Assembly: GCF_009689585.1 (NCBI RefSeq)
Contig: NZ_AP018694.1
Span: 1,612,001-1,676,000 of the forward strand
Origin: Aquipluma nitroreducens
GTDB taxonomy: Bacteria > Bacteroidota > Bacteroidia > Bacteroidales > Prolixibacteraceae
Reading direction: 5' to 3'
Length of the DNA stretch: 64,000 nt
Positions 1-15,259 of this stretch are shown piece by piece; the stretch's first letter is position 1, and the number at the start of each line of letters is the position of its first letter. The notes beneath the pieces were generated by a model that saw nothing but the letters and a program-made list of their open reading frames with translations, did no database searches and was not told the DNA's origin. The translations under genes and the position numbers were made by a program.

Positions 1-636
1 CCCAAATCCAATCAGGCGCGGATTCTTCAATGCCATCGAATTTACCCGTTCAAAATATTGTTTCTGAAAGTTGGACACACTGGCTTTAGCCCCGGTGGTT
101 GAATTGCTCGAAACCATGTAAATAAACCCGGTTGATACCTCATCGATTTTGCGAAGCCGCTCGTCCGAAGTTTGAGGTGTAATCAGGAATATATTGTGCA
201 GGTTATTGGCTTCAAAAACAGGCTTGAATTCTGTTTCATAAACATCCAATGGTAAATCGGGAATAATTAATCCATCGATTCCAATTTCATTGCATTTTTT
301 GCAAAAGGCCTCCAATCCATATTGAAGCACCGGGTTGATATACCCCATCAGGATAAGCGGAATTTCAACTGATTTACGGATGTCTTTCAATTGGTCGAAC
401 AGTTTCCGAATGCTCATTCCGTTCTGTAAGGCAACTAAACTACTGTGCTGAATGACCGGTCCATCGGCCACCGGATCAGAAAAAGGCATCCCAATTTCAA
501 TCAGGTCAACTCCATTCTTAACCAACTCCTGAATAACAGGAACGGTATCTTCCAGATTAGGATATCCGGCAGTAAAATACACCGAGAGTACCTGTTCTTT
601 TTTCTCCTGAAATAGCTTATTTATTCTGTTGTTCAT
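1..636 (-). CDS. trpA: Tryptophan synthase alpha chain (partial, 3' end beyond window)
   Basis: TrpA cleaves indole-3-glycerol phosphate to indole and glyceraldehyde 3-phosphate and passes indole to TrpB through a tunnel in the alpha2-beta2 complex. About 212 residues are visible from the ATG at 636, without a stop before the window edge. The N-terminal region reads FTAGYPNLEDTVPVIQELV and then LIEIGMPFSDPVADGPVIQ, which holds the catalytic Glu and the substrate-binding PFSDP segment of the family. It is the last gene of the trp operon and is separated from trpB by a paired palindromic repeat (650-770). Family assignment is certain; only the C-terminus is missing. Confidence 0.96.
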   Translation of the reverse strand, partial: MNNRINKLFQEKKEQVLSVYFTAGYPNLEDTVPVIQELVKNGVDLIEIGMPFSDPVADGPVIQHSSLVALQNGMSIRKLFDQLKDIRKSVEIPLILMGYINPVLQYGLEAFCKKCNEIGIDGLIIPDLPLDVYETEFKPVFEANNLHNIFLITPQTSDERLRKIDEVSTGFIYMVSSNSTTGAKASVSNFQKQYFERVNSMALKNPRLIGFG

Positions 637-770: not shown

Positions 771-1952
771 TTAATATCCAAAATGTTTTAAGTACGTTTC
801 CATGTCTTTGTCTCCTCTTCCGGAGATATTAACCACGGTAGCTTCTTCAGGTTTCATCTGAATTTTCTTTAATGCGGCCAATGCGTGTGCCGATTCCAAT
901 GCCGGAATGATTCCTTCCAATTGTGTCAGTTCAAGTGCAGCATCCAATACTTCGGCATCGGTTGCCCACAAGTATTCGGCTCGCTTTGTCTTGAACAAAT
1001 TGGCGTGCATCGGACCAATTCCGGGGTAATCCAGTCCGGCAGAAATTGAGTATGGTTCAGTAATCTGTCCATCGTCGGTCTGCATCAGGATGGAGCGCGA
1101 ACTGTGCAAAACTCCGGGCGAACCCAAAGTCAGCGTCGCAGCAGTTTCCGGAGTATCAACGCCCAATCCTGCCGCTTCAACACCAATTAGTTTCACGTTT
1201 TCCTGATCGAGAAAATGATAAAATGCCCCGGCAGCATTGCTTCCTCCACCCACACAGGCAATTACGCGATCCGGATTTTCTTTTCCGGTTTGCTCTTCCA
1301 ACTGCCAGCGAATTTCTTCAGAAATCACCGACTGAAACCGCGCCACCATATCGGGGTAAGGATGCGGTCCCACAACCGAACCAATGATGTAATGAGTGTC
1401 AACCGGGTTATTGATCCAGTCGCGCATCGCTTCGTTGGTAGCATCCTTCAGGGTTTGGTTACCACTCAGGGCCGGAATAACCTCGGCTCCCAGCATCTTC
1501 ATTTTTTTTACATTCGGCGCCTGACGTTCCACATCAACAGCACCCATGTAAACAATACATTTTAGTCCCATCAACGCACAAACCGTGGCCGTTGCCAATC
1601 CATGCTGACCAGCGCCTGTTTCGGCAATGATGCGGTGTTTGCCTAATTTTTTGGCCACCAAAATCTGACCAATGGTATTGTTTATCTTGTGCGAGCCGGT
1701 GTGGTTCAAATCTTCGCGCTTCAGATAAATATTAGTTTGGTATTTTTCTGAAAGCCGTTTGGCGTAGTACAATGGTGACGGTCGCCCTACGTAGTTTTTG
1801 AGCAATCCTATAAATTCCTGCCTGAAGTCGTACGAATTGATAATTTCGAGGTAATTCAGACGTAATTCTTCAATGTTTGGCACCATCATTTCGGGAATGT
1901 ATGCCCCGCCAAATTCGCCATAATAACCTTTTTGATTCACTTGATAATTCAT
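771..1952 (-). CDS. trpB: Tryptophan synthase beta chain
   Basis: TrpB is the PLP enzyme that condenses indole with serine to give tryptophan. The 393-residue protein has the normal length. The PLP-lysine lies in HTGSHKINN (about residue 88), the phosphate-binding loop in [10 protein letters not shown] (about 233), and the N-terminal [10 protein letters not shown] motif is intact. The ATG at 1952 is chosen because the family N-terminus (GYYGEFGG) follows directly. It lies between trpF (27-nt gap) and trpA in the same transcription unit. Confidence 0.98.
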
Positions 1953-1979: not shown

Positions 1980-2618
1980 TTAGATTTTAGACCGGATTCC
2001 GGAAATGAAGTATTTTACTTTTTCAACATCCTTCAGAGCCGGGCTGATTTCGAAACCGCTGTTGATGTCGATTCCATGCCATCGGGGATGATCGAAGTGC
2101 CGGATGGCTTCCATATCTATGGGTCCAATGCCACCGCTCAAAAAGAAAGGAACATCGCCTTTGTAATTTTGCAGCAATTTCCAGTTAAATTTTTGCCCTG
2201 TTCCTCCCGGAATTTGGCCTTTGGTGTCGAATAAAAAATAATTGCACACCTTGGAATAAGCGTCCAACATTTCAAAATTGAACAGCTCATCAACAGAAAA
2301 AGCTTTGAAAACGGTTATTCCTGAATCCTGAATTTTCCGACAATATTCAGGAGTTTCATTTCCATGAAGCTGAGCCACATGCAAATCCCAGATTCGAACA
2401 GTTTCCAGTACTTTCTCCAGAGTTTCATCGACAAAAACGCCGACTTTCTTAACCAAATCCGGAATAACAGCCATTACTTCCGTAGAAGGTTCGAAGCCCA
2501 CAAATCGTTTGCTTTTCAGGTAAAAAATAAATCCCAGATAATCGGGCAATGCCTCAACAACTCCCGAAATATTTTCAGGATCACGCATTCCGCAGACTTT
2601 TATTTTTAGTTCGTTCAT
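1980..2618 (-). CDS. trpF: Phosphoribosylanthranilate isomerase
   Basis: TrpF carries out the Amadori rearrangement of N-(5'-phosphoribosyl)anthranilate to CdRP, the third step of tryptophan synthesis after anthranilate formation. The 212-residue TIM barrel begins KVCGMRDPENI, whose Cys is the family's general base. It holds FVDETLE and QLHGNETPEYC in the middle, a catalytic Asp in FDTKGQIPGGTGQKFNW, and the phosphate-binding FLSGGIGP near 162. Here trpF and trpC are separate genes, not fused as in enterobacteria. A dispersed repeat fills the gap to trpC. Confidence 0.97.
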   Translation of the reverse strand: MNELKIKVCGMRDPENISGVVEALPDYLGFIFYLKSKRFVGFEPSTEVMAVIPDLVKKVGVFVDETLEKVLETVRIWDLHVAQLHGNETPEYCRKIQDSGITVFKAFSVDELFNFEMLDAYSKVCNYFLFDTKGQIPGGTGQKFNWKLLQNYKGDVPFFLSGGIGPIDMEAIRHFDHPRWHGIDINSGFEISPALKDVEKVKYFISGIRSKI

Positions 2619-2734: not shown

Positions 2735-3520
2735 CTATTTCAATTTGTCTATAAACTCTTTACAGGCTTTGCCCGGATCATCTGTTTTCATAAAAGTTTC
2801 GCCAATCAAAAAACCTTTAAACCCGGCAGTACGAAGCTGAGCAATGCTTTCCGGATCAGAAATTCCGCTTTCAGAAATTTTCACAAACGGATCTGGAATG
2901 AGCTTGCTAAGGCGAACTGAAGTTTGCACATCTACCTCAAAAGTCTTCAGGTTGCGGTTATTTACGCCAACCAAGTCAACCTGCGGATTCAGTTTCTCCA
3001 ACTCTTCAGCACTGTGAACTTCAACCAAAACTTCCAGTCCCAATTCTTTCGCTTTGAGTGTCAGTTCGAGCAATAATTCTTTGGTTAAGCTTTCAGCAAT
3101 CAACAAAATTACATCTGCACCATGTGCCCGGGCTTCGTAAATCTGATATGGATCGAGCATAAAATCTTTTCGCAAAATCGGAGTTTCAGGATTTGCAAAA
3201 CGAGCTTTGGCCAGATTCTCGAATGATCCCCCAAAAAAGTGATCATCAGTCAAAACCGACAACCCACTTGCACCAGCAGCCACATAAGCGACAGTGATTT
3301 CGGAAGCTTCGGCGGTCTCGTTAATCACGCCTTTCGATGGCGATTTGGTTTTAAATTCGGCAATCACACCACTCGCACCTTCGGCCAGCAACGCGGCCTT
3401 GAGAGAATTGGGTTTCCGCTTAAAATACGGCGATGCCATTAATTCTTCGACCGAAACCCTGCTTTTTGCCTCCGCAATTTCGGTTCGTTTGTTTTCGTTA
3501 ATTTGATCAAGTATGGTCAT
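2735..3520 (-). CDS. trpC: Indole-3-glycerol-phosphate synthase
   Basis: TrpC closes the indole ring by converting CdRP to indole-3-glycerol phosphate. I take the start at 3520 (MTILDQINENK, 261 residues). The longer reading from 3589 adds 23 residues encoded by the dispersed repeat at 3531-3587 and has no family similarity. Landmarks are the substrate-binding EFKTKSPSKG (about 56), LSVLTDDHFFGGS (about 87), LRKDFMLDPYQIYEA (about 116), VGVNNRNLKTF and SESGI near the end. Spacing to trpF is enlarged by the 2652-2720 repeat. Confidence 0.97.
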   Translation of the reverse strand: MTILDQINENKRTEIAEAKSRVSVEELMASPYFKRKPNSLKAALLAEGASGVIAEFKTKSPSKGVINETAEASEITVAYVAAGASGLSVLTDDHFFGGSFENLAKARFANPETPILRKDFMLDPYQIYEARAHGADVILLIAESLTKELLLELTLKAKELGLEVLVEVHSAEELEKLNPQVDLVGVNNRNLKTFEVDVQTSVRLSKLIPDPFVKISESGISDPESIAQLRTAGFKGFLIGETFMKTDDPGKACKEFIDKLK

Positions 3521-3530
3521 ATTCTTGTTT

Positions 3531-3587
3531 CGGGTTGCGAGATTCGGGTTGCGAGTTAACCCATAACTCGTAACTCGAACCCGTAGC
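3531..3587. repeat. AACTCGTAACTCG-type intergenic repeat
   Basis: Short GGGTTGCGAG-type and CATAACTCGTAACTCGAACC-type segments form an imperfect inverted repeat in the trpD-trpC gap. Related copies occur at 4598-4656 (trpG-trpD gap) and 22640-22700 (efflux operon). All copies are confined to intergenic DNA. Confidence 0.6.
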
Positions 3588-3591
3588 AATT

Positions 3592-4587
3592 TTATACGTT
3601 TAATTCCATTAATTTCCTGAATGCCCCCAAAGCCCGTTTGCTTTTCAGCGATTCGGAAGCTTCAGCAACACAATCAGCAAGCGATTTCTCCGGATGAATA
3701 CACTGAATTCCTAAAGCAGTATTTGAAATTACCACATTTTGCTGAGCCTCAGTTCCGGCGCCTTCCAATACATTTTTGAAAATTTTTGCAGCAGCTTCAA
3801 CGGTTTCACCACCGTAAAGTTCTTCCGGAGGAACCGGAGCGAAACCAAAATCAGCAGGAGAAAGGTTGTCTTCAGTTAGATTCGACACAAAACGGGCATC
3901 ACCGGTAAGCGAGATTTCGTCGTAGCCATCCAGGCTGTTCACAATGATGTAATTCTGTCCGCTTTCCCTGAAAACCTGATGATAAAGATCCATCACATCC
4001 AGATCGTACACGCCAACCAATTGGTTCTTGGGAAACGATGGATTGATGATTGGCCCCATCATATTGAAAAGCGTTTTAACCTTCAGTGCCTTCCGGACAG
4101 AGCCAACACTTTTCATGGCAGGATGAAACAGCGGCGCATGTAAGAAACAAATTCCGGCGTCTTCGACTTCCCGCTTCAATTTGTCCTGTTTGTTGTTGAA
4201 CTGATAGCCAAAATACTCAAACATATTTGACGATCCGCTTACTGAGGATGATCCATAATTTCCATGTTTGGCCACTTTATAACCAGCGCCGGCAAGCAAA
4301 AACGTGCTGAGTGTCGATATATTAAAAGTGTCTTTCCCATCGCCTCCCGTGCCAACCACATCAATCGTGTTATATTCCGAAAGGTCGATAGCTACGCACA
4401 ATTCGAGCAATGCCTGACGAAACCCAGCCAATTCTTCACCGGTTATTTGCCGCATCCTGAAAACCGTCAGAAAAGAAGCGATTTCGCTGTCCGAAAACTG
4501 TCCTTCAGCAATGCGAACCAGCATCTGATGCGCCTCAGCTTTGGTTAGTCTGCTGCCTGTAAATAAGTAATTTAAAGTATCTTTCAT
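3592..4587 (-). CDS. trpD: Anthranilate phosphoribosyltransferase
   Basis: TrpD transfers the phosphoribosyl group of PRPP to anthranilate. The 331-residue protein has the PRPP-binding motif VVGTGGDGKDTFNIST (about residues 76-91), the KHGNYGSSSVSGSSN loop, and the anthranilate-side segment HPAMKSVGSVRKAL (about 155). It is a stand-alone enzyme, not fused to trpG. It follows trpG in the operon with a 76-nt gap that holds a dispersed repeat. The start at 4587 gives MKDTLNYLFTGSRLTKAEA, the usual N-terminal helix of the family. Confidence 0.97.
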   Translation of the reverse strand: MKDTLNYLFTGSRLTKAEAHQMLVRIAEGQFSDSEIASFLTVFRMRQITGEELAGFRQALLELCVAIDLSEYNTIDVVGTGGDGKDTFNISTLSTFLLAGAGYKVAKHGNYGSSSVSGSSNMFEYFGYQFNNKQDKLKREVEDAGICFLHAPLFHPAMKSVGSVRKALKVKTLFNMMGPIINPSFPKNQLVGVYDLDVMDLYHQVFRESGQNYIIVNSLDGYDEISLTGDARFVSNLTEDNLSPADFGFAPVPPEELYGGETVEAAAKIFKNVLEGAGTEAQQNVVISNTALGIQCIHPEKSLADCVAEASESLKSKRALGAFRKLMELNV

Positions 4588-4663: not shown

Positions 4664-5233
4664 TTACTTTTTCAGCCAGTTAGTGATCATCAGCTCGCCA
4701 AGCGGTGTTAAAACCGACTCGGGATGAAACTGAACACCTTCGACGTCAAAAGTAGTATGTTTCATCGACATGATCATGCCTTTTTCGTCGTAACTGGTCA
4801 CTTGCAAACACTCCGGAAGATCAGCTTCATTAACAATCCATGAATGATAGCGGCCAACCGAAAAGGTTTCAGGAAGACCATTAAAAAGGATTGTGGGTAC
4901 TTTGGTGGTGGAAACCGGCGTGGCAATTCCGTGCAAAACGCGGTTCATGTTGGTAAGCGATCCGCCAAAAGCCTCGCCAATAGCCTGATGCCCCAAACAA
5001 ACTCCCAACATACTCTTGGTTGGTCCGAATTTCCGGATAATGTCGAGCAACAATCCGGCCTCTTCAGGGATTCCAGGACCGGGAGAAAGTACTATTTTAT
5101 CGTATTGCTCCAGATCTTCCAAAGCAATTTCATCGTTTCGGAACACATCAACCGGCAAGCCTGATATTTTCTTGATGGCATGTACCAGGTTGTAGGTGAA
5201 CGAATCGTAATTATCTATGACTACTATTTTCAT
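4664..5233 (-). CDS. trpG: Anthranilate synthase component II (glutamine amidotransferase)
   Basis: TrpG hydrolyses glutamine and channels ammonia to TrpE for anthranilate synthesis. The 189-residue class I amidotransferase shows the catalytic Cys in LGVCLGHQAIGEAFGG (about residue 79), the oxyanion segment LSPGPGIPEEAG, and the His-Glu pair in VEGVQFHPESVLTP near the C-terminus. All triad residues are present. It sits 54 nt downstream of trpE. In many bacteria the same subunit also serves para-aminobenzoate synthesis; the operon context supports the tryptophan role. Confidence 0.97.
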   Translation of the reverse strand: MKIVVIDNYDSFTYNLVHAIKKISGLPVDVFRNDEIALEDLEQYDKIVLSPGPGIPEEAGLLLDIIRKFGPTKSMLGVCLGHQAIGEAFGGSLTNMNRVLHGIATPVSTTKVPTILFNGLPETFSVGRYHSWIVNEADLPECLQVTSYDEKGMIMSMKHTTFDVEGVQFHPESVLTPLGELMITNWLKK

Positions 5234-5287: not shown

Positions 5288-6697
5288 CTAGTTGATATCC
5301 TTTGCTATTTCCAGCGCTTTTTTCAGAGCGCCCAGTTTGTTATTCACTTCCTGAAGTTCGCTTTCTTCCTGCGAATCGGCTACAATTCCGGCACCAGCCT
5401 GATAGTAAAGCGTGTTGCCTTTACTCAGAAACGAGCGGATCATGATGGCATGGTTCAGTGTATGGTCGAAGCCGAGGTAACCAATGCAACCTCCATAAAA
5501 GCTGCGGCGTTGATTTTCATACCGGTCGATCAATGTCATCGCCATGTGTTTTGGAGCTCCCGACAATGTTCCGGCAGGGAATGAATCGCCCAAAACGGTA
5601 ATCATGTTAGTGTCTTTAGGCAATTTTCCTGAAACTTCAGACACCAAATGAATGACATGTGAGAAATATTGAACCTGACGGTAACTGTCGACGGTGACAT
5701 CGCTGGCATTGCGGCTCAGGTCGTTGCGGGCAAGGTCAACCAGCATTACATGCTCAGCATTTTCCTTTGGATCGGCGCACAAACGTTCGGCAGCAAGTCG
5801 ATCCTCTTCGTCGTTTCCGGTGCGCTTAAAAGTTCCGGCAATCGGATTGATAATGGCCCGACATTTCTTGATGCGCAGTTCAGCTTCGGGACTGGAACCA
5901 AAAATGCGGTAAGTTCCGTAGTCGAAAAAGAATAAATAAGGAGAAGGATTCACCGAGCGCAAAGCACGATAAACATTGAATTCGTCGCCTTTAAACGGCT
6001 GCGAGAACTGGCGCGAAAGCACAATCTGAAAAACATCACCGCGAAAACAATGCTCCTTGCCTTTGCTCACCATGTATTTGTATTCTTCGTTGGTAATGTT
6101 AGAAACTTCCTCTCCTACCGTATCGAACTGTGTTGGCGAAAAAGTCAGGTTACGTAGCAGTGATTCAATTTGGCCAATCTCTTTAGTTTCGCCTTCCATC
6201 AGGTTTTCGATCAGGTAAATCATGTCTTTGTGATGATCGATAGCTACAATGTACTTGTAAAAGCAATATTTAACTTCAGGAACCGAGTAGGCTGCCTTCT
6301 TTTCAGCCGTGATTTCAATTTTCTCGAAATACTTTACCGCATCGTAACCAATGTAGCCAAACAAGCCATTTGCCGGTAGGTTTTCGGTTTCTCCTGATAA
6401 TTTGAACGACTTGAAAAAGGCATCCAGTTGTTGATCGACCCGGCATTCCGGCGAAATGCTTTTTGTCTCCTTTTCACGACCATTGTATTCGATGGTTATT
6501 TCACCCGAATCGGCTGTAAAGCATGCCATCGGTTTGATACAGATAAACGAATACGCATTTTCATGACCATGGTAATCGGAACTTTCGAGCAGAATCGAAT
6601 TCGGGAATAAATCCCTGAATTTCAGGTAGACACTCACCGGTGTTAAGGTGTCGGCAAGGATCTTTTTTACGCTGACTTGTACATTAATTTCTTTCAT
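5288..6697 (-). CDS. trpE: Anthranilate synthase component I
   Basis: TrpE converts chorismate to anthranilate with ammonia from TrpG and is the committed step of the pathway. The 469-residue protein has the N-terminal LLESSDYHGHENAYSFI segment (residues about 35-51), where the LLES motif is known in the family to bind feedback-inhibiting tryptophan. The chorismate-binding C-terminal half contains QIVLSRQFSQPF, GSSPEAELRI, NPIAGTFKRTG, LVDLARNDLSR and GAPKHMAM, with YQAGAGIVADSQEESE at the end. It is the first structural gene of the operon. Expression probably depends on the attenuator region at 6851-7122. Confidence 0.98.
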   Translation of the reverse strand: MKEINVQVSVKKILADTLTPVSVYLKFRDLFPNSILLESSDYHGHENAYSFICIKPMACFTADSGEITIEYNGREKETKSISPECRVDQQLDAFFKSFKLSGETENLPANGLFGYIGYDAVKYFEKIEITAEKKAAYSVPEVKYCFYKYIVAIDHHKDMIYLIENLMEGETKEIGQIESLLRNLTFSPTQFDTVGEEVSNITNEEYKYMVSKGKEHCFRGDVFQIVLSRQFSQPFKGDEFNVYRALRSVNPSPYLFFFDYGTYRIFGSSPEAELRIKKCRAIINPIAGTFKRTGNDEEDRLAAERLCADPKENAEHVMLVDLARNDLSRNASDVTVDSYRQVQYFSHVIHLVSEVSGKLPKDTNMITVLGDSFPAGTLSGAPKHMAMTLIDRYENQRRSFYGGCIGYLGFDHTLNHAIMIRSFLSKGNTLYYQAGAGIVADSQEESELQEVNNKLGALKKALEIAKDIN

Positions 6698-6709
6698 GTG
6701 ATATGTGGT

Positions 6710-6845
6710 TTAAGCCCCCTCCAAACCTCCCCCAAAAGGGGAGGCTTAAAAAGCAGTGCTAAGTAATTACTGTTTATATTTTTAATTATCAGAATCTGTG
6801 CCTTCTTCAAGTCCCCTCCCTCGGAGGGGATTTAGGGGAGGCTAC
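6710..6845. repeat. Paired REP-like palindromes between trp attenuator and trpE
   Basis: Two G/C-rich palindromic units (6711-6750 with CCTCCCCCAAAAGGGGAGG, and 6808-6845 with CCCCTCCCTCGGAGGGG) face each other across an AT-rich core containing CAGATTCTGA on the operon strand. The architecture matches 650-770 in the same operon. It lies between the second terminator hairpin and the trpE start, so it would be transcribed only after read-through. Confidence 0.7.
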
Positions 6846-6850
6846 AAAGA

Positions 6851-6885
6851 AAAAGCGGCTTACCGTGTTCCGATAAGCCGCTTTT
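6851..6885 (-). terminator. trp attenuator terminator 2
   Basis: On the minus strand the arms AAAAGCGGCTTATCG and CGGTAAGCCGCTTTT form a 15-bp stem with one G-U pair and a 5-nt loop GAACA, followed by a U-rich tail (TTTTTCTTT overall). It is a textbook intrinsic terminator placed 25 nt after the stop codon of leader peptide 2. The loop and 3' arm contain CACGGTA, exactly complementary to TACCGTG inside leader ORF 2 (6921-6927), giving a possible alternative pairing. Confidence 0.9.
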
Positions 6886-6909
6886 CTGTTCATTTTTTGA
6901 CAATGATAG

Positions 6910-6966
6910 CTACTTCCTTCCACGGTATTGCGAAAAGTTTCTGTGCCACCACCAAATATTTTTCAT
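6910..6966 (-). CDS. Second Trp-rich leader peptide (MKNIWWWHRNFSQYRGRK)
   Basis: An 18-codon ORF (longer if an upstream in-frame ATG at 6984, 6978 or 6975 is used) encodes three consecutive tryptophans at 6946-6954 and stops at 6910, just before terminator 2. In attenuation theory, a ribosome stalled on the Trp codons would leave TACCGTG (6921-6927) free to pair with the terminator. A ribosome reaching the stop would cover it and allow termination. The peptide has no other recognisable feature. It lies downstream of a first leader peptide and hairpin, so the operon appears to have two attenuators in series. Confidence 0.85.
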   Translation of the reverse strand: MKNIWWWHRNFSQYRGRK

Positions 6967-6994
6967 TGTAATCATCATTCTCATCTTAAATTAA

Positions 6995-7026
6995 AAGACC
7001 TGCTATTCCGAAGAGAAGCAGGCCTT
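6995..7026 (-). terminator. trp attenuator terminator 1
   Basis: On the minus strand AAGGCCTGCT pairs with AGCAGGTCTT (10 bp, one G-U) around a 12-nt loop, followed by TTAATTT. The U-tract is weaker than in terminator 2. It follows leader peptide 1 by about 36 nt. The upstream strand AAGAAGTAAGAGCC (7051-7064) can pair with GGCCTGCTTCTCTT (7011-7024) with an internal loop, a candidate antiterminator. Confidence 0.7.
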
Positions 7027-7044
7027 AGTATAGTTTTAAAATAC

Positions 7045-7103
7045 CAATATGGCTCTTACTTCTTACTTTTTAGAAAGAAGACCCCACCACGGAAGCCATA
7101 TTG
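7045..7103 (-). promoter_or_regulatory. Leader 1 pause-type hairpin (1:2 pairing)
   Basis: CAATATGGCT (7094-7103), which includes the first Trp codon of leader 1, is perfectly complementary to AGCCATATTG (7045-7054), downstream of the leader stop codon. The 10-bp pairing encloses the other two Trp codons. It corresponds in position to the 1:2 hairpin of classical amino-acid attenuators. Confidence 0.75.
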
Positions 7104-7122
7104 TATTTGTATTTTGAATCAT
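7063..7122 (-). CDS. trpL: First Trp-rich leader peptide (MIQNTNTIWLPWWGLLSKK)
   Basis: A 19-codon ORF begins with ATG at 7122 and contains Trp codons 9, 12 and 13. Three tryptophans in 19 residues, directly upstream of a trp operon and followed by complementary strands and a terminator-like hairpin, is the signature of a transcription-attenuating leader peptide. No Shine-Dalgarno is visible, as is normal in Bacteroidota. A weak -7-like box (TTATTTTG, minus strand 7160-7167) would place transcription start about 30 nt upstream. Confidence 0.87.
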   Translation of the reverse strand: MIQNTNTIWLPWWGLLSKK

Positions 7123-7272
7123 GTTTTTGATATTTTCTGTAAAAAAACGAATTATATTCCAAAATAACAAGCCTTACACCGAGATTGTTTTCATTCTATT
7201 CTGATTTCTTAACAAAAGAAGTTGAAACTCATGGGAACAGCAATAAAACAATGTCTCTTTTGCCTAAAATAT

Positions 7273-7644
7273 TTATTTGGAATCGCTAAAAATCAATTTA
7301 CCATCTTTATACAATTTCGTTTCACCGTGCCAATTGGTATAGACAAAATGCTCATTACTATACTTTATTCCCGATGCCATTCTTTCCTGCTTCAATTCAA
7401 TCCTCTCACCATTCAATTCCAGCATGCATGTTCCTAGCGAGTTATTAAAAGTACACTTTAAAGAGCTTCCGTCCTTATTAGTTGTCGTCGAAATTACAAT
7501 CCCACTGTCTTTTGTCGAAGAATCTTCTGATTTTAGTTCGATTCCAGAACTGCTTTTTTCGGCTTTATTATTTGATTTCCTGTTCTGGCAGGAAAAAAAA
7601 ATTAAAAATGAGGCGATGAACAGAATTTCGAAATCCTTTATCAT
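7273..7644 (-). CDS. MliC-like lipoprotein (possible lysozyme inhibitor)
   Basis: A 123-residue secreted lipoprotein. The N-terminus FLIFFSCQ is a lipobox with the acylated Cys near residue 19, followed by a Ser/Lys/Glu-rich linker. The C-terminal part (about 60-120) contains RMASGIKYSNEHFVYTNW and ETKLYKDGKLIF, resembling the MliC fold motif (SASGxKYSN...FWxKGxxAxL) of C-type lysozyme inhibitors. It starts 14 nt after the sprA stop and so may be co-transcribed with sprA; the trp leader begins about 150 nt downstream. Function is inferred from motif resemblance only. Confidence 0.65.
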   Translation of the reverse strand: MIKDFEILFIASFLIFFSCQNRKSNNKAEKSSSGIELKSEDSSTKDSGIVISTTTNKDGSSLKCTFNNSLGTCMLELNGERIELKQERMASGIKYSNEHFVYTNWHGETKLYKDGKLIFSDSK

Positions 7645-7657
7645 AGCATTGCTTTAA

Positions 7658-10600
7658 CTATTGCGCCAATGTAAACCGGAAGCTTACCCCAAAATTGGTT
7701 GTTGAAGTTTTAAACGACCCTACAAGCGGATGATTCAGAACTTTATCGTAATACAGGCGCAATTGGAAACGATCACTAAGCATATAATCTGCTGTTGTTT
7801 TTAGCGTGATATTATTCTGCCCTGCAGTCAATTGCTGATCCTCTTCAACAATTTTACGGAGGATAGTCATATTTTTTCTAAACGACAGATCGGCTCTTAC
7901 GTTTAAATCATTTGAATAGGCTTTTTGCGATTTTTTTGTTTTCACAATCAAGTCCATCCGGGTAAATCGATAACCGACGCCAAAAACCATTTCTTTGCTT
8001 AACACCTCGGTAAGCTGGTTGTTTGAGAAACTTAAAGCAAGGTTACGGGAAGATTTAAGCTCAACCCTGGTTTCAAAGTCGTTAATCCATGTTACATCAA
8101 GTCCAATTAGCGGACTGAATTGCTCTGAAATACTTACTGAATTAATGTCGTTAGGGCCAACAAAATCGCCAAGCGTATTTCGCACGTAACTAAAGCCGTC
8201 GCCATATAATTTTTCGTTGTAATCGAGATTGGAGATAAACGACCCCACATTATAACTCGACCGGTACGCGTGATTAAAACTTAAGGTTTTAAAGTATTTC
8301 TTCAGAAATTCTGACTTCGAAACAACTCCTTCATAAGTGATTCGCCAGTTTGGACGCATGTATTTAATGGATGGGAACGGACTCAATGCAACTTTATCGG
8401 CCGACTGTCCGGTATAAGCTGCAATAAATGCGGGGACCAAAACCTGGGGTGAAGTTGAACCATAACCAACCGGGAATCCTGTATTTGGATCAGGAACATT
8501 CGGATTGTAGCCTTGAGCTCCAGCCCTCTGATTGGCAAGCCTCTGAGCAATTATCAGCCGATTACTCTTTAGCGCATCAAATGCTTTTGACGGATAGCTT
8601 ACATTACCATCAGCATCCGTTTTTGACATCTTACTGAAAGCCGTATTCATGGTGTTGATAGACATGGTAAAATTACCGCTTACCGATCGATTGGCCGGAT
8701 CAAACTGATGAGTTGAACTGTCGTAATTATAAAACTCAGTACTACGTTCAGAATAAGTGCGGTTGGCATTTAAATCAATCCGAAGATCAGGAAAAGGCTC
8801 AACATTGGCACGGAAATTAAACGTTTCGCTATGCGACATAACATACGGAGAATTGAGTGTTGTATCACGTGTAATCCAGCCTTTCGCTGCGGCCTTCATA
8901 GCAAAATCTTTATCCTGCCATCCAAGTAGGAATGGAATTCCAGGAGCAGTCGTCTGTCCGGGAAGATCGCTGTACATGGTCTTGTCGGGCGTATAATTAC
9001 CAACTCCAAAAATACGGGGTTCAGGCATAAATCCAGGCATCACAGTTCCATCGGTTGTTGAATAACTTAATGAAATGCTGCGAACACTCATTAATGCACG
9101 TGCCGTGTACTGAACCAGTTTCTGTCCTAAATCACGGACGACCTCAATTTTGCCTTTAACCACAAACTTCACTCCCGATAAACTTTTATCAGAAGTAAAA
9201 CTGACACGGTTTTCATTAACAACAACAACCTCTCCTTTAACAATTGAACCATCTTTTGCAATTGCCGTAACTTCAACATCCTTCGTTTTAAGCTTGTGAA
9301 ATATCGATTTGGGCGTATTGGCTTTTAATCGAACATTGTCAGTCGAATACTGAACGACTTTTATTTTTGGCGCGGCCTTTTCCTTTACTGGAGCTGCTTG
9401 CTTCGGCTGGCCAGGCTTACCCTGTCCTTGTGTCTGACGCGATCTGTCCATGCGCTGCTGTTGTCGCGAACTGGTTCCGTATTTCTGGTTTATATCCTTT
9501 AAAAATCCCACCTTATTGTAAAGAGTAACCATATTGAGTTGGCCATTCATCTGAAGGTTCCGCGAGTTTTCGATCACGTTTCCAAGAACTACCGATTTAT
9601 CAGTAATTGCTCCGGCCTGCCAATCGTACATTCCCTGATAACGAGCCGAAAGTGAGGTCCAGTCGAGCAATGGTAATTTGTTGATTGGTACCATGTAATT
9701 GGCATTGATGATGTGATGATACAATGTTGGACGACCCAGATTGAGTAAATTGGCTATAATGGAGTCTCTTTTTATGGTGTAGTCATCGTCATTACGGTTA
9801 ATGCGGCCAGCCGGCTCATCAATACGGGCAGTATTCTGCGAAGAAAAGTCCAATTCCAGACTGCGTGTTAAGTTATACCGTAAATCAACATATCGATTCC
9901 ATATGAACTCTTTATTAAAAGTGGGCGAAACAATCAGGTTTGGATTTGAAACATTTCGCAGCTGTATCTCATTGTAATACCGGTACAAATCTGTCCGGAA
10001 TGAAAATTGCGACGGCATGGGCGAAATATTGAAATCGCGGATCAACCTGAAAATATTACTTTTCAGAAGTTTCGAGTTTTTAAATGGCTCGTAAGTCGCC
10101 GGTCTATTGTTGAAATTGTATGAAAATAATGCCCGATATGTTTTTTCGACGTTGAATTCCGTATTGATATCCCTGCGATTAACCTTGCTATAAGCGTAGG
10201 TTACCGAAAAGTTAGTCGGGTCATAAAACCGTGGCTTGCCCGACTTGCTGGTTTTATCGATTTTTACATTTGTGAAATTGAGGCTCTTTCGAACAACCAA
10301 ATCCTGGGCAATATTTTTGATAGAATCTTTTGCAGCTTTGCTCCCGGCGTTGCTGAGTGCATCTTTCATGGTTATATCCTCGTCAACCGGATTGTATTTC
10401 GGATTGCTGACACTTCGGGAATAACCATAATACATTGGTATTTTAACTTGTGCCTTTTCAGGGAAAAACTTACCAAGTTCAAGGTTGGCAGCTACATCAA
10501 TTTGGCTCAAATCGGCCATCGCCCGCTCGTTCACCTTTTGGTTAATACTTCCAAAACCAACACTCCTGTAACTACCCGCCATTATTACTGTTCCCAAATC

Positions 10601-13600
10601 GGCCAAACGTGCGGTAACCCTTCCGTTTGCAGCCCAACCTCCACTTTCGTCAAGGCCGGATAAAGCGAGCTCGTTTAGCCAAACTTCAATCGACTTCGGT
10701 CCATAATCGTTAAGGTCCTTATCTTTATAGCGAATACCTAGCATCATCACCTCCACGTTGCCCAAATTCGGGTTTCCCTTGATACTGATGGTTCGTGATC
10801 CTTTCAGGATTGAATATACCTTTGATAAACTAACTCCTGAATTGGCTACACGAAGTTCGGCATTTCGTTTCAGCTTCAAATTAGTAAGAATATCCAGAGC
10901 AAGATCAACACGGTTTGTGTCGGGCCAAACAGCATATCTGTCGGCTTCGTTTTCGCTGCTATAAATAGGACCCGGCTGTGTCAATGAAAGCGGAACCTCA
11001 TACTCGTAGTAATTGTTGTAATAATCCGAACCAATCCGGACAAACAAAGACAAATCGCCATCTTTAACTGATGGCAGCCCCTCGATAGCTTCGGCATGGA
11101 CATCCATTTTAAGCCGCTTGTAATTGCGGAAATCCATGCTCAGAGTCTTGTAGGCAGCACGCGACTCACCTTCCTCCAAATCAATTGCACGCATAACCAA
11201 CGACTGTTCGTTCAGTTGAAGTAATTGTGGACTGGATGGGTCGATAACGCGTTCGACTCCCGGAGGCAAAACGTAATGTATCGGAGATCGACTGGCATTC
11301 TCTTCAATGTTTACTGCTGAAAGGTCGAATTGAGAATTCAAATTGGTATTTAAATTACCATCGACATTGCCGGTATATTTACGCCAATCGGCACGAACCA
11401 AATCGAGTGTGGCAAAACGCAGGAATGTAGGCTGTGAGAACCCTTTCAGAAACATCCTCATAAAACGAATCGATTTGAAATCGGAAATTGATCCAAATGC
11501 AGCGTCCGGATTTTTGACCGGTATCTTGAACTGGTACCACCTTACTGAATCGGCAACTGTATTATTTTTTAATTTAACATTCCGGGCTACCCTGATATCA
11601 GCAATCGAATTTTTTCCAACAACCATATCCTCGCGACGAACACTTATTTTATATTGGAAATAGCGTTCGTATTCGTTTAAGGTATTGTCGCTGTTAATGT
11701 CCTCCATGTCAGGTTGTGTGGATGCCGAAGTTGTATATGACTCTTTCGACATTTCGGCAGTGGGCGAGTTTCCATCCGGGCCATTAAAGTTTTTGTACCG
11801 CTCCAATATCCCAACTTGATCCTTATCAAAGTCAGATCCCCTGAAATAATGAAAATTATCACTCGAAGGATCCGCCTCAACTTTGGTAAGTGCAACCGGA
11901 TTCAGAATAGTTTTCAATGTTTCCAAATACGGTTCTCTGAACCTTTGTTCATCGGTATCGTTCATACCATCTAAGCCTAGATCCTGGTACGTGCGACTTT
12001 GAACGTTATTATCAAACTCCTTTACAAGAGATTGTTGTTTTGGGACTCTACCCCAGGTGGTTGTGTCAACATTGGCCAGTTCGGCCGAAGTTGGCAATCC
12101 ATTTTCGAACGACTTCCGTGAGTCTTTCAAAATATCTTCCGATACATCACCCAGGTTAAAATACAAATCGCCCCCTTGGTTAAGCTTAAGCGAATCGTTG
12201 ATAAAAGGATCCATCACCCAGAATTCGATGTATTCAATGTTTGCAGCTTCAAAATCAGTAGTCTCAACTTTACGCATCATACCGCCCCAACGTGATTCCG
12301 GATCGCGAAGTGTTCCATCAGCATTCACCCCGTGTGAATATGCTGAAGGCTGGCTATCGAAATTATAGGGTCCTCTTTCCTCCGGATAAAAAGCAAGATC
12401 CAGAATCGGAATATTTGTTGGTAATCCGATTTGTGTTTGCCGGTCCGGAAAAATTTCGGATTCATAAACTTCACGAACAAAATGATTGGACTGAAGGTCT
12501 GCATTCTTTTTTATGTAATCGGGTGTTGTAGCGCTGTTTCTTAAAAACAGCGGATCAATAACATACCAAGCCAATTTGGCCCGGTTGAACCCATATGCAA
12601 GATCATCGGTCAAAGAAGCTTCCGGAAACATGTTTTGTTTTTGCGGGGTACTTGCCAACACCCAGGCCGAACGCGTTTTCATGTCAATGGAAGTCTTTGT
12701 TGCCTCAAAGTCGTCGATATATACCTTCCCAGTTCCAGAGATGACCTTAGAATGACCTGGAACCAACTTGGCGAACTCACCGTCAAATGCGATTGATGAA
12801 TTTTCCTTGGTTGAATAAAATGGCAATTTATCGAGCATTTTAGTGATTAACCGTGATTGATTGGAATAACTCGCATCCAATCCAAGCATCGTATTTGAAA
12901 TCGGATCATCGCCATAATTAACCTTTTGCGTTAATGGCCGTTCTTCCATGTGTAAAACGGTTGCGCCCAGGCTAAATCGATCGTTGAAGGCATAATTGGC
13001 ATGTGTCCCGATAAGGGTCTTGCGTTGCATACTGAAAAGATCCTGACTTTCGGTCGAGACCTGAAGCGCTGAGCCTGATTCAAGCAACCCTGCATTAATA
13101 ATCTTCACAATTCCGGAGGCATAATCTACCGTGTAGTCTATGTTTTCAGTCAGGGTAATCCCTCCTGAAGTAACTTTAACAGAACCTCTTGCCAAATTTT
13201 GCGCATTCACCGATATTTCATTGCTCGCCGAGCCTTTATACGATCCTTTTAACTTGAATTTATTGTGTTCGGCATCCTGTATGGCGACCGTTTTTGTTGA
13301 ATCGTAAAGAGTGGTGTAAGCATATTTCTTTGCCAGAATTGGATCGCCAATCGAATCGGCAAGGAATTTTCCGAAAGGCTCCAAAACCGGGAAAATAATT
13401 TTTCCGGAATTGGAAATAACTGTAATGCCTTCGATGTAATCGAACATTCCATCGCGACCCAAATCCAATTGGGAATTGACCTTATCGAGATTCAGTACAT
13501 TTAGTAAAATGTGTCCGTTCAACCTTCCTTCAGGCAAATAATTGATTTTAGTTCCGGCTTTATCGTTCTGGTATAAAACATCGAGAATAAAGTTCTCATT

Positions 13601-15259
13601 GGTCAGCTGATAGGCATTCAAATCATAAACGTTTTTCATCATCAGCTTCCATACCGGAATCCGTGGCGAAAGATTAGTTCCTTTCAGCAGCTTCAGGATT
13701 AAAGTTTCAGGGGCATTAATCCCATCAGTAGAAAACTCCCCAACCTGGTACGTTTTTCCGTTGGCCGTGTAGTTGAATGCTACGGCCAGTATTTCATCCG
13801 AATTTAAAGCCGAACGTAATGAAATATATCCCAGGTTTTTATTGATGGTGTATTCTGACTCACTAAGTAAGCGTGCCTGTTCAATTTTCTCAAAATCCTG
13901 TCCTCCGGTAAATTTATATGCTTCAAGCGGAGAAAGGGTTTTATTAATGATTGGAAATTGACGAATCCCGGAATAATTGGTAATCATTTGATTGTACAAT
14001 CCATTAGCCCCATTAAAAGGGAAAATAGATTCGGGGTATCCTTGTCCCGTGGTTTCCTGAAAAGCACCAACTTCATTGTAAATATTACCTTTCGGATTGT
14101 TTGGGCTATTTGACTCATGTTCGCCCAAATCCATAAAAGCCAATATATTACGCGACGATGTGAAATTGCTCGATTTGTTGGTGACCCACACCTCAATTTT
14201 GTTGATCGTTATGGACGAGCTTACAATTGGCAGGTTTTTGAGCGCTGCATCGTAATGATCGCGGAAATATTGTGCCAGAAAAAAGTGCCGGTTGGCATCG
14301 TAATCAGAAGCTGCAATCTCAAATGTTTTCTTCTGGGCTCCACCTTCCGACTCAATTACTTTAGTTTCGCCTTTACTCTGCGAAAAAATAGTTGTCAGGT
14401 TAAGTTTTCCAAATTGCAATTCAGTTTTAACCCCGAACAGATTGGTCCCTCCGGTGATAAGCGAACCGTTCAGTGGAAGCGAAACATTACCGGCCTCAAT
14501 CTTTTTAACAATCTGATCCTCATCACCAGTATAGCCCAGATTCATTTTATTTTCGTAATCGAAAGTAGCTTCGGTATTGTAGTTGACCCGCATTTCCATT
14601 TTATCGCCAATCTTTCCGGTTACATTCATCTGGATTTTCTGATTGAAATCGAAAGTCGGTACTTTGCGTAATCGCTCCGGAATGGATGGATTCTCGGTAG
14701 AATTCATCTGGTAACCGAAACTAACTTCGACATAACCCTGTGGGCGAATATCGATGGTATTACTTCCAAAAATCTTATTGAAAGTTTCGCCGCCAACAGT
14801 TAAACGGGGAATGAACCCACCTTTGTCTTCGACGCTTTTAATGTGAGCCTGGTTGCGCCAGTAGTTCTGAACGGCCAGTTCAAAATCGTATTTTTGAAAT
14901 TCTTTTTTGGTCATGGTTTTTGGCAACCTGTAATTCAGATCACCAACCTTTTCGATAAAATTATATTCGCCCGTAACCGGATCGTATTCAACTTCGGTTT
15001 TAATATTCGAAGGAGTTTTCAGGAAAAGCTTTGAACTGTCTTTTTTATCGGGATAGGCAAATGCGGGTTCGTCCTTAAACTTATAGGGTAATACTCCGGT
15101 AGTATCAATTTTGACGGTATCTTTTGGAGCCGACAAAACAGGGAGTAAATTATAATTCCTGAGAGTTGTTCTTGATAGGATAGGATTACCTACAAGAGCA
15201 TAAAAAAAAGATACAATAAATAGTATAAGTATGTTTCTGCCGTACTTTTTCAATTCCAA
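7658..15259 (-). CDS. sprA: Type IX secretion translocon protein SprA
   Basis: SprA (Sov in Porphyromonas) is the giant outer-membrane beta-barrel that forms the protein-conducting channel of the type IX secretion system. The 2533-residue length is in the family range. After an N-terminal hydrophobic export segment (NILILFIVSFFYALVG), conserved SprA features follow: the YDPVTGEYNFIEKVGDLNYR segment, GNVSLPLNGSLITGGTNLFG, and KVYIDDFEATKTSIDM near the middle. There are many amphipathic beta strands and a terminal strand ending GVSFRFTLAQ. A Gln/Pro/Lys-rich linker (about residues 1926-1958) interrupts the barrel. It is downstream of ruvA (13-nt gap), a synteny seen widely in Bacteroidota. Confidence 0.98.
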   Translation of the reverse strand: MELKKYGRNILILFIVSFFYALVGNPILSRTTLRNYNLLPVLSAPKDTVKIDTTGVLPYKFKDEPAFAYPDKKDSSKLFLKTPSNIKTEVEYDPVTGEYNFIEKVGDLNYRLPKTMTKKEFQKYDFELAVQNYWRNQAHIKSVEDKGGFIPRLTVGGETFNKIFGSNTIDIRPQGYVEVSFGYQMNSTENPSIPERLRKVPTFDFNQKIQMNVTGKIGDKMEMRVNYNTEATFDYENKMNLGYTGDEDQIVKKIEAGNVSLPLNGSLITGGTNLFGVKTELQFGKLNLTTIFSQSKGETKVIESEGGAQKKTFEIAASDYDANRHFFLAQYFRDHYDAALKNLPIVSSSITINKIEVWVTNKSSNFTSSRNILAFMDLGEHESNSPNNPKGNIYNEVGAFQETTGQGYPESIFPFNGANGLYNQMITNYSGIRQFPIINKTLSPLEAYKFTGGQDFEKIEQARLLSESEYTINKNLGYISLRSALNSDEILAVAFNYTANGKTYQVGEFSTDGINAPETLILKLLKGTNLSPRIPVWKLMMKNVYDLNAYQLTNENFILDVLYQNDKAGTKINYLPEGRLNGHILLNVLNLDKVNSQLDLGRDGMFDYIEGITVISNSGKIIFPVLEPFGKFLADSIGDPILAKKYAYTTLYDSTKTVAIQDAEHNKFKLKGSYKGSASNEISVNAQNLARGSVKVTSGGITLTENIDYTVDYASGIVKIINAGLLESGSALQVSTESQDLFSMQRKTLIGTHANYAFNDRFSLGATVLHMEERPLTQKVNYGDDPISNTMLGLDASYSNQSRLITKMLDKLPFYSTKENSSIAFDGEFAKLVPGHSKVISGTGKVYIDDFEATKTSIDMKTRSAWVLASTPQKQNMFPEASLTDDLAYGFNRAKLAWYVIDPLFLRNSATTPDYIKKNADLQSNHFVREVYESEIFPDRQTQIGLPTNIPILDLAFYPEERGPYNFDSQPSAYSHGVNADGTLRDPESRWGGMMRKVETTDFEAANIEYIEFWVMDPFINDSLKLNQGGDLYFNLGDVSEDILKDSRKSFENGLPTSAELANVDTTTWGRVPKQQSLVKEFDNNVQSRTYQDLGLDGMNDTDEQRFREPYLETLKTILNPVALTKVEADPSSDNFHYFRGSDFDKDQVGILERYKNFNGPDGNSPTAEMSKESYTTSASTQPDMEDINSDNTLNEYERYFQYKISVRREDMVVGKNSIADIRVARNVKLKNNTVADSVRWYQFKIPVKNPDAAFGSISDFKSIRFMRMFLKGFSQPTFLRFATLDLVRADWRKYTGNVDGNLNTNLNSQFDLSAVNIEENASRSPIHYVLPPGVERVIDPSSPQLLQLNEQSLVMRAIDLEEGESRAAYKTLSMDFRNYKRLKMDVHAEAIEGLPSVKDGDLSLFVRIGSDYYNNYYEYEVPLSLTQPGPIYSSENEADRYAVWPDTNRVDLALDILTNLKLKRNAELRVANSGVSLSKVYSILKGSRTISIKGNPNLGNVEVMMLGIRYKDKDLNDYGPKSIEVWLNELALSGLDESGGWAANGRVTARLADLGTVIMAGSYRSVGFGSINQKVNERAMADLSQIDVAANLELGKFFPEKAQVKIPMYYGYSRSVSNPKYNPVDEDITMKDALSNAGSKAAKDSIKNIAQDLVVRKSLNFTNVKIDKTSKSGKPRFYDPTNFSVTYAYSKVNRRDINTEFNVEKTYRALFSYNFNNRPATYEPFKNSKLLKSNIFRLIRDFNISPMPSQFSFRTDLYRYYNEIQLRNVSNPNLIVSPTFNKEFIWNRYVDLRYNLTRSLELDFSSQNTARIDEPAGRINRNDDDYTIKRDSIIANLLNLGRPTLYHHIINANYMVPINKLPLLDWTSLSARYQGMYDWQAGAITDKSVVLGNVIENSRNLQMNGQLNMVTLYNKVGFLKDINQKYGTSSRQQQRMDRSRQTQGQGKPGQPKQAAPVKEKAAPKIKVVQYSTDNVRLKANTPKSIFHKLKTKDVEVTAIAKDGSIVKGEVVVVNENRVSFTSDKSLSGVKFVVKGKIEVVRDLGQKLVQYTARALMSVRSISLSYSTTDGTVMPGFMPEPRIFGVGNYTPDKTMYSDLPGQTTAPGIPFLLGWQDKDFAMKAAAKGWITRDTTLNSPYVMSHSETFNFRANVEPFPDLRIDLNANRTYSERSTEFYNYDSSTHQFDPANRSVSGNFTMSINTMNTAFSKMSKTDADGNVSYPSKAFDALKSNRLIIAQRLANQRAGAQGYNPNVPDPNTGFPVGYGSTSPQVLVPAFIAAYTGQSADKVALSPFPSIKYMRPNWRITYEGVVSKSEFLKKYFKTLSFNHAYRSSYNVGSFISNLDYNEKLYGDGFSYVRNTLGDFVGPNDINSVSISEQFSPLIGLDVTWINDFETRVELKSSRNLALSFSNNQLTEVLSKEMVFGVGYRFTRMDLIVKTKKSQKAYSNDLNVRADLSFRKNMTILRKIVEEDQQLTAGQNNITLKTTADYMLSDRFQLRLYYDKVLNHPLVGSFKTSTTNFGVSFRFTLAQ

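Follow-up and report, generated by a model that had tools for sequence, protein, structure and literature searches.

Textbook trp operons have one attenuator. In E. coli, the trpL leader before trpE holds a leader ORF with Trp codons and the pairings 1:2, 2:3 and 3:4, alongside the TrpR repressor. In the Bacteroidota, the Bacteroid-trp RNA (RF01692) is likewise a Trp leader, listed in PMC2864571, but this family models one unit. Serial arrangements have been described for other operons. The Salmonella mgtCBR operon likewise has two short leader ORFs in series, but their signals differ (ATP and proline), according to the excerpted source (PMC3641672). In the locus described here, each of the two leaders carries Trp codons and is followed by an intrinsic terminator of its own. 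Streptococcal mefA/msrD has two serial leader peptides that both respond to erythromycin and are each paired with a transcription attenuator, but the gene mefA lies between the leaders and the signal is an antibiotic (PMC10314930, excerpt). The tandem riboswitches of B. clausii metE likewise give serial premature termination, but the mRNA leader senses the signals directly, without a leader peptide (PMC3641672, excerpt). The second terminator of the rimP leader also acts by serial premature termination, and its signal is not a leader peptide (PMC2965389, excerpt). The matches listed from the open-access literature, as far as their excerpts go, include no tandem of leader-peptide attenuators that read one and the same amino acid ahead of a biosynthetic operon, which is a weak negative. 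Serial leader-peptide attenuators are thus already known, and a same-amino-acid pair before a biosynthetic operon appears to be new.

The window, a stretch of 64,000 nucleotides of Aquipluma nitroreducens DNA, was analysed. Read 5' to 3' on the minus strand (7175-6840), it contains a promoter-like element, leader ORF L1, hairpin 1, terminator T1, leader ORF L2 and terminator T2, followed by trpE from 6697 (Table 1). These elements very probably form two complete ribosome-mediated Trp attenuators in series on one transcript, both sensing charged tRNA-Trp. The basis of this reading is anatomy, frame, conservation, covariation, geometry and one promoter-like box; the start site, stalling, termination and quantitative gain are inferred. 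The alternatives weighed below partly overlap with it.

Table 1. Leader elements and trp genes in the window.
Feature	Position	Strand	Basis or detail
Promoter-like element	7140..7170	-	TTG 7170-7168, 20 nt, TTTTTTTA 7147-7140
Leader ORF L1, MIQNTNTIWLPWWGLLSKK, 19 aa, 3 Trp	7063..7122	-	Sequence; frame conserved
Hairpin 1 (1:2)	7039..7108	-	Fold, covariation, covariance model R1
L1 antiterminator (2:3), predicted	7014..7063	-	Duplex energy, ribosome geometry
Terminator T1 (3:4), 7026-7017 with 7004-6995, then U-tract	6993..7026	-	Fold
Leader ORF L2, [MRM]MITMKNIWWWHRNFSQYRGRK	6910..6984	-	Sequence; Trp-rich leader here in most family loci
L2 1:2 hairpin, Trp-codon strand with stop-codon surroundings and downstream (GTAGCTATCATT)	6905..6950	-	MFE fold
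L2 antiterminator, TACCGTG 6927-6921/CACGGTA 6867-6861	6861..6927	-	Run-length test
Terminator T2	6850..6885	-	Folding
trpE, first gene of the controlled operon	5288..6697	-	NCBIfam TIGR00564
trpG	4664-5233	-	trpG subfamily above curated NCBIfam cut-off
trpD	3592-4587	-	Above curated NCBIfam cut-off
trpC	2735-3589	-	Above curated NCBIfam cut-off
trpF	1980-2618	-	NCBIfam 164 of 216 bits: below cut-off, best family
trpB	771-1952	-	Above curated NCBIfam cut-off
trpA-like ORF	1-636	-	Window edge; named from position and look

The operon order was trpEGDCFB followed by the trpA-like ORF. trpE reached 430 of 518 bits against TIGR00564, below the curated cut-off, but this was its best NCBIfam family. 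The first-pass annotation had placed two Trp-rich leader ORFs in series before trpE, each followed by a terminator-like hairpin. Both ORFs were confirmed on the minus strand, and folding bore out T1 (7026-6995, -16.9 kcal/mol, z -5.0) and T2 (6885-6850, -25.2 kcal/mol, z -7.0). The z-scores of the whole units were -4.3 for L1 and -5.0 for L2. A generic terminator scan of the window with a loop limit of 8 missed both T1 and T2, probably owing to a T1 loop above this limit and to a T2 stem that uses part of its own U-tract; the two minus-strand matches were other hairpins. The elements by which sequence reveals a ribosome-mediated Trp attenuator, namely a Trp-codon ORF, an intrinsic terminator and a mutually exclusive antiterminator that a ribosome at the stop codon would mask, were all found.

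To survey relatives, the 23 genomes of the genus and the 140 of the family were searched for trpE, and 127 of the latter gave a match at E<=1e-100. Of these 127 family loci, 123 entered the analysis of upstream DNA; G047, G079, G123 and G048 were left out, the first three for little or no upstream DNA or a partial match. The L1 Trp run was defined as TGG, one or two codons and TGGTGG within 700 nt. The 123 regions, counted as related sequences and not as independent events, comprised 81 full loci, 15 hairpin-only loci and 27 without an L1 Trp run within 700 nt. Six of the 27 were stretches cut by contig ends (L018, L025, L085, L112, L125 and L140); in G041 and G132 L1 lay further upstream, and in G100 and G073 hairpin 1 was present with its Trp codons out of that frame. 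The labels full and hairpin-only were given by eye and then tested via the ATG (within 45 nt) and the terminator. A typical L1 sequence was NTIWLPWWGLL, and named relatives included Maribellus, Mariniphaga, Draconibacterium and Sunxiuqinia. All 81 full loci, from 9 genera, had the Trp codons together with an in-frame ATG 21, 24, 27 or 30 nt before the first of them; the other frames had an ATG in 2 and 0 loci. Of the 81 full loci, 80 had an intrinsic terminator in the interval from hairpin 1 to L2, compared with none of the 15 hairpin-only loci; the exception among the full loci, L021, had a weakened stem. The ATG and T1 were jointly present or jointly lacking in 95 of 96 loci, and wherever the ATG was absent T1 was absent too (15/15). 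The proposed conservation of Trp codons, hairpins and alternative pairings was thus upheld by the family comparison, and an upstream double Trp switch appears to be kept across much of the window's family. The short lengths of the ORFs are all that speaks for chance or an assembly artefact. Such an origin is hardly credible and was rejected, since the pair recurred in 81 of 123 family loci from many separate assemblies.

The pair was also sought among named Bacteroidota. It was present in ten (L141, L144-L151 and L163) of the best 80 trpE loci among the matches listed. L142 (Gaoshiqia) and L143 (Sunxiuqinia) had L2 only, with peptides identical to those of the hairpin-only loci L044 and L046. 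By eye, the remaining 68 of these best 80, some of which may belong to the window's family, had at least one Trp-rich short ORF in 61 cases and none in 7, and the L1 motif was seen in none. The serial pair had been called unusual, and the lack of an L1-type leader in these 68 loci agreed with that. One family locus, L097 (G137), had another kind of Trp leader, MMRLTNNWWWPCSESSKE, upstream of an ordinary L2; it was missed by the pattern and is possibly a separate form of tandem.

The L1 unit was examined for its three pairings. The L1 Trp codons were located at 7098-7096, 7089-7087 and 7086-7084. The 5' arm of hairpin 1, AAATACAATATGGCT (7108-7094), spans the first Trp codon and pairs with the 3' arm AGCCATATTGGTATTT (7054-7039); the 10-bp match noted earlier within it (7103-7094/7054-7045) was exact. 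In 38 rows, 91.6% of the cells at 15 positions were standard pairs, a value reached in 0 of 500 shuffles, and changes on both sides occurred at 10 of the 15 pairs. On 80 distinct full rows, 93.5% were paired vs 88.0% in shuffles. In genus g23, the Trp codons were kept (W-S-W-W, W-F-W-W; by eye) where the hairpin arms had changed. The 2:3 pairing joins AGAAGTA (7063-7057) to TGCTTCT (7020-7014) and GCC (7053-7051) to GGC (7024-7022). Its mean duplex energy was -13.5 kcal/mol with the own partner, -10.0 with cross-genus and -6.8 with shuffled partners; this test used a window from 30 nt after the first Trp codon, which gives zero stall coverage by construction. A run of at least six contiguous Watson-Crick pairs was found in 35 of 81 loci, moderately above the controls (cross-genus 21%, shuffled 10%). 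With GU allowed the run was found in 79 of 81 loci but also in 85% of the cross pairs, so this measure gave no separation. On a fixed alignment, the paired cells were barely above the shuffles for 2:3 (75.1% vs 73.8%) and for 3:4 (85.1% vs 83.0%), probably because the register varies between genera. Exact 2:3 exchanges were seen among relatives: TTAGGAG/CTCCTAA, TTAGAAG/CTTCTAA and GTAAGAAG/CTTCTTAC. In all 81 loci, at least half of the antiterminator core lay under a ribosome at the stop codon, where the core was the longest run with GU, searched from 21 nt after the first L1 Trp codon, and the footprint was assumed to be -15..+12. The results suggested that L1 carries its own 2:3 antiterminator on a plan of the E. 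coli trpL type.

The L2 unit was of another kind. L2 ends at 6910 with ..NIWWWHRNFSQYRGRK, and its Trp codons lie at 6954-6946. In-frame ATGs occur at 6984, 6978, 6975 and 6966. The place and the Trp-Trp-Trp of the 18-residue L2 proposed earlier held, but its start was the last of these four ATGs, and the listed relatives mostly have an earlier one. The position of the L2 1:2 hairpin is the aligned position of the Rfam Bacteroid-trp helix. TACCGTG falls within the last sense codons of L2 and CACGGTA in the loop-side 3' arm of T2, and the 7-bp match between them was exact as annotated. In some genera, bases just past the L2 stop, not the last codons, pair with this arm, and in g3 and g19 TCGGAAGTT/AACTTCCGA replaces TACCGTG/CACGGTA. 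T2 was parsed in 108 of 123 family loci, and the run-length test covered 164 of 191 loci in all. A run of at least six Watson-Crick pairs was present in 72 of the 108 family loci (cross-genus 29%, shuffled 4%) and in 37 of 56 other Bacteroidota (cross-genus 20%, shuffled 5%). The duplex-energy test separated poorly for L2 (own partner -10.9 in the family and -12.7 in the others, cross -9.4, shuffled -9.0). The number of L2 Trp codons varies between and within genera; four instead of three were seen in L099, L101, L102 and L103 (g17, TWRWWWHRNFLQP) and in L053 and L054 (g5, NWWWWHNNFLQP).

The predicted antiterminators of the two units differ in design, so the pair is no simple doubling. Neither this difference nor the separate 2:3 antiterminator of L1 figured in the first-pass annotation. 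An origin of L1 as a recent copy of L2 was rejected, as no likeness beyond the Trp codons was seen by eye in the printed regions. It is possible, if rather doubtful, that the units answer different signals or charging levels and act as a two-input or two-threshold gate, which would be compatible with two working attenuators. The different Trp layouts (W-x-x-W-W vs W-W-W) and antiterminator designs point that way, and the excerpted account of mgtCBR offers a precedent for two signals (PMC3641672). However, Trp codons number two to four in each ORF, and inspection by eye showed no conserved run of another amino acid in either.

Known RNA families were compared with the locus. At the Rfam gathering threshold the window gave no match. 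In a relaxed search, Bacteroid-trp (RF01692) fell separately on L2 (30.7 bits) and L1 (27.7 bits), below its gathering score of 49; among the 20 loci scanned, only the L2-type units of the single-leader relatives L129 (53.0 bits) and L122 (49.8 bits) passed it. L2 looks to work like Bacteroid-trp and to be homologous to it by position and antiterminator; for L1, membership of RF01692 is not claimed. L1 follows the same plan as E. coli trpL (RF00513), although E. coli has one unit. RF00513 itself did not match the window at E values up to 10 and scored 26.3 and 24.5 bits in the relatives L073 and L042, below its cut-off of 41. A T-box riboswitch was rejected, being absent among the 29 Rfam matches up to E=10 in 6600-7400. 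No other Rfam regulator in the window exceeded its threshold, and low-scoring mir, PyrR and sRNA matches were taken as chance.

Both leaders should share one transcript if transcription starts before L1 only. The pattern TTG-N17..23-T[AT]nnTTT[GA] was searched, whose T[AT]nnTTT[GA]-type box presumably matches the Bacteroidota promoter consensus. Of 96 family loci, 65 had the box before L1, among them all 15 hairpin-only loci and 50 of the 81 full ones; shuffles gave a mean of 6.8 and a maximum of 16. The box mostly ended 40-42 nt before the first Trp codon. A separate promoter between the units was rejected, because the pattern occurred there in 2 of 96 loci, below the shuffled mean of 3.6. 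In the window, 8 nt separate the end of the T1 U-tract from the first in-frame L2 ATG, which leaves no room for a promoter after T1. A start below L1 only, which had been named as evidence against the tandem, was checked as far as sequence allows. With a box ahead of L1 and no excess over chance in the interval to L2, a common transcript is expected.

On this transcript, RNA polymerase would start roughly 10-15 nt before L1. When Trp is plentiful, the L1 ribosome would reach the stop codon and mask the 2:3 strand; T1 would then form, and most transcripts would end. When Trp is short, the ribosome would stall at the L1 Trp codons inside hairpin 1 and free strand 2, which would pair with the 5' arm of T1, so that polymerase continues. 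A second ribosome on L2 would repeat the test: at the L2 stop it would mask TACCGTG, whereas stalled at WWW it would leave TACCGTG free to pair with CACGGTA and break T2. trpE would be reached only by transcripts passing both T1 and T2. With independent readthrough probabilities Q1 and Q2, expression would be about Q1 x Q2, so the leak would multiply and the logarithmic gains would add. In attenuation theory, sensitivity is the logarithmic gain of readthrough, as given in the excerpted source (PMC1183508). The sharper response suggested in the first-pass annotation would follow from multiplied readthrough, but as an inferred property it goes further than the data, as does the two-threshold response raised there. 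A natural family with serial attenuators could readily serve to test how sensitivity arises. Among relatives of one family, operons occur with a single leader, a double leader or the hairpin only, and the effect of adding or removing one attenuator should be directly measurable there.

Attenuation is probably in use elsewhere in the same genome. By eye, the hisG locus (L290) has a leader-like ORF, MSKAIKHYGHHHVILSLGRQ (His), and one of the two ilvD loci (L291) has another, MKNISIISLVIISVVVLLRAE (Ile/Val/Leu), each followed by a terminator-like hairpin. No leader-like ORF with a hairpin was seen at the second ilvD-like locus. As the hisG and ilvD leaders are single, doubling is not general in this genome. 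The transcriptome of Flavobacterium psychrophilum gave strong clues for leader-peptide attenuation before amino-acid operons, according to the accessible part of the report (PMC9723704).

The history of the pair was investigated with a trpE protein tree of 60 chosen rows, with a root for drawing only and named-row labels assigned by eye. Single-leader vs the rest required one change (support 85/80, 90% of bootstrap trees), and the hairpin-only state required two: a clade of L028, g12, g15, g7 and g21 (98/95), and g8. With the root among the single-leader rows, the tree fits an older L2 and a hairpin-1 element added once upstream of it. From these comparisons, L2 (WWW) represents the older type, which is of the Rfam Bacteroid-trp kind and occurs widely in the phylum. 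In genus g8, L1 would have been either lost or never present. The L1 start codon and T1 are lacking in 15 relatives (17 including G073 and G100), so the pair is dispensable. This lack and the greater age of L2 would suit a leader in which L2 alone works as a Trp attenuator, L1 being a relic or a hairpin with a merely passive place upstream. That is very unlikely, since the ATG frame, the Trp codons and T1 (80/81) are retained jointly at 81 loci in 9 genera.

The hairpin-only relatives preserve the RNA itself. None of the 15 loci had an ATG-started Trp frame within 45 nt; ATG only was considered, and GTG/TTG, AUA or rare starts are possible. The constraint on the hairpin is therefore not from an ATG-started leader peptide. 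In 12 of these loci (g7, g15, g21 and L028), 32 nt of the hairpin, comprising the 5' arm, the internal loop and the start of the upper stem, were identical in 11, and in the twelfth three of the last six of the 32 bases differed. Across six pairs compared among these loci, agreement at trpE third positions of conserved multi-codon residues was only 0.36-0.44. The hairpin was more divergent in three g8 loci, G073 and G100, with UGGUGGG kept. The upper stems and loops of the hairpin-only loci vary; pairing is possible in the printed cases, though in the best fold of L047 this part is paired differently. The two helices of hairpin 1 are separated by an asymmetric internal loop in which GUGGUGGGG faces UAA. 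The conserved hairpin 1 RNA would so have a translation-independent role; candidates are a protein site, an aptamer and a 5' hairpin for pausing or stability. In L123 (G073) and L100 (G100), which are without T1, the hairpin-1 Trp codons stand in an internal-ATG frame (MAWWGAL and MANSWWDPS) and may still be translated, as if leader function had shifted.

The specificity of hairpin 1 was determined with the covariance model R1, built from 38 of the family loci. R1 matched 104 of the 140 family genomes at E<1e-6. The match lay upstream of trpE in 100 genomes, namely at 95 of the 96 loci (G136 was missed) and in G041, G132, G100, G073 and G048, the last placed by coordinates. In G022, G047, G055 and G097 the fetched piece stops before trpE; three run into L2 and one into a nucleotidyltransferase gene. 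Stricter filters on 393 genomes of the order returned four family members and two weak matches (E 1e-5 and 1e-4) without the Trp run. Hairpin 1 elsewhere in family genomes was rejected, as further matches were opposite-strand reads of the same palindrome or weak (E 8e-5 to 0.008). Weak places lay also in G119 and in G074 contig C19; the five that were read by eye (L285-L289) had no TGG..TGGTGG run. The family and order genome searches found no second genomic context for hairpin 1.

These data bear on two further readings of hairpin 1. It is tentatively proposed, at modest probability, that hairpin 1 is a regulatory RNA itself, binding a ligand, protein or tRNA or timing RNA polymerase, with the attenuator built on top and later given up in a single clade, that of Gaoshiqia, Sunxiuqinia and their kin, where the RNA would have stayed fixed. 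If so, the window leader would carry three Trp-operon controls, and the hairpin-only lineages would hold a conserved RNA of unexplained function, so far before a single operon. A reading in which hairpin 1 serves first of all as a structured RNA (an element for a ligand, a protein or pausing) and the L1 ORF comes second is unlikely. The almost unchanged sequence in 12 of the 15 loci without ATG and T1 would suit this, as would the codons CTT CCG between the L1 Trp codons, found in 52 of the 59 full loci that share this spacing (leaving aside four g17 matches of L2 type). However, the in-frame ATG and T1 accompany each other in all but one of the 96 loci, and the genome searches found the hairpin in no second genomic context. 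Two serial Trp attenuators remain the preferred reading of the window.

Several features were seen around the leaders. Between T2 and trpE, the window has a palindromic CCTCCCC...GGGGAGG repeat (6717-6843, minus strand) with at least 21 further matches in its own genome (40 of 77 candidates scored). The L2-trpE distance of the nearest relative, L010, is 120 nt shorter, and its printed part is without the repeat; the leader in the window seems to owe its extra length to a dispersed repeat of a REP-like or MITE-like kind. A plasmid DNA search gave no match. Upstream of the leaders, a very large ORF of 2533 aa (7658-15259, minus strand) presumably encodes an SprA-like gliding/secretion protein, and it adjoins a small lipoprotein-like ORF (7273-7644) without an NCBIfam match.

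In L278 (G041) and L279 (G132), a two-gene module lies between T1 and L2, and L281 (G055) shows the start of this module. Its genes encode a nucleotidyltransferase (PF01909/PF18765) and a HepT-like protein (PF01934), so that G041 and G132 have a gene pair between L1 and L2, as mefA/msrD has an intervening gene. The second gene of L278 looks interrupted. In L278 and L279, the last codon of the module and the first codon of L2 overlap (ATGA). In such loci, L1 would stand before both trp and a toxin-antitoxin-like pair.
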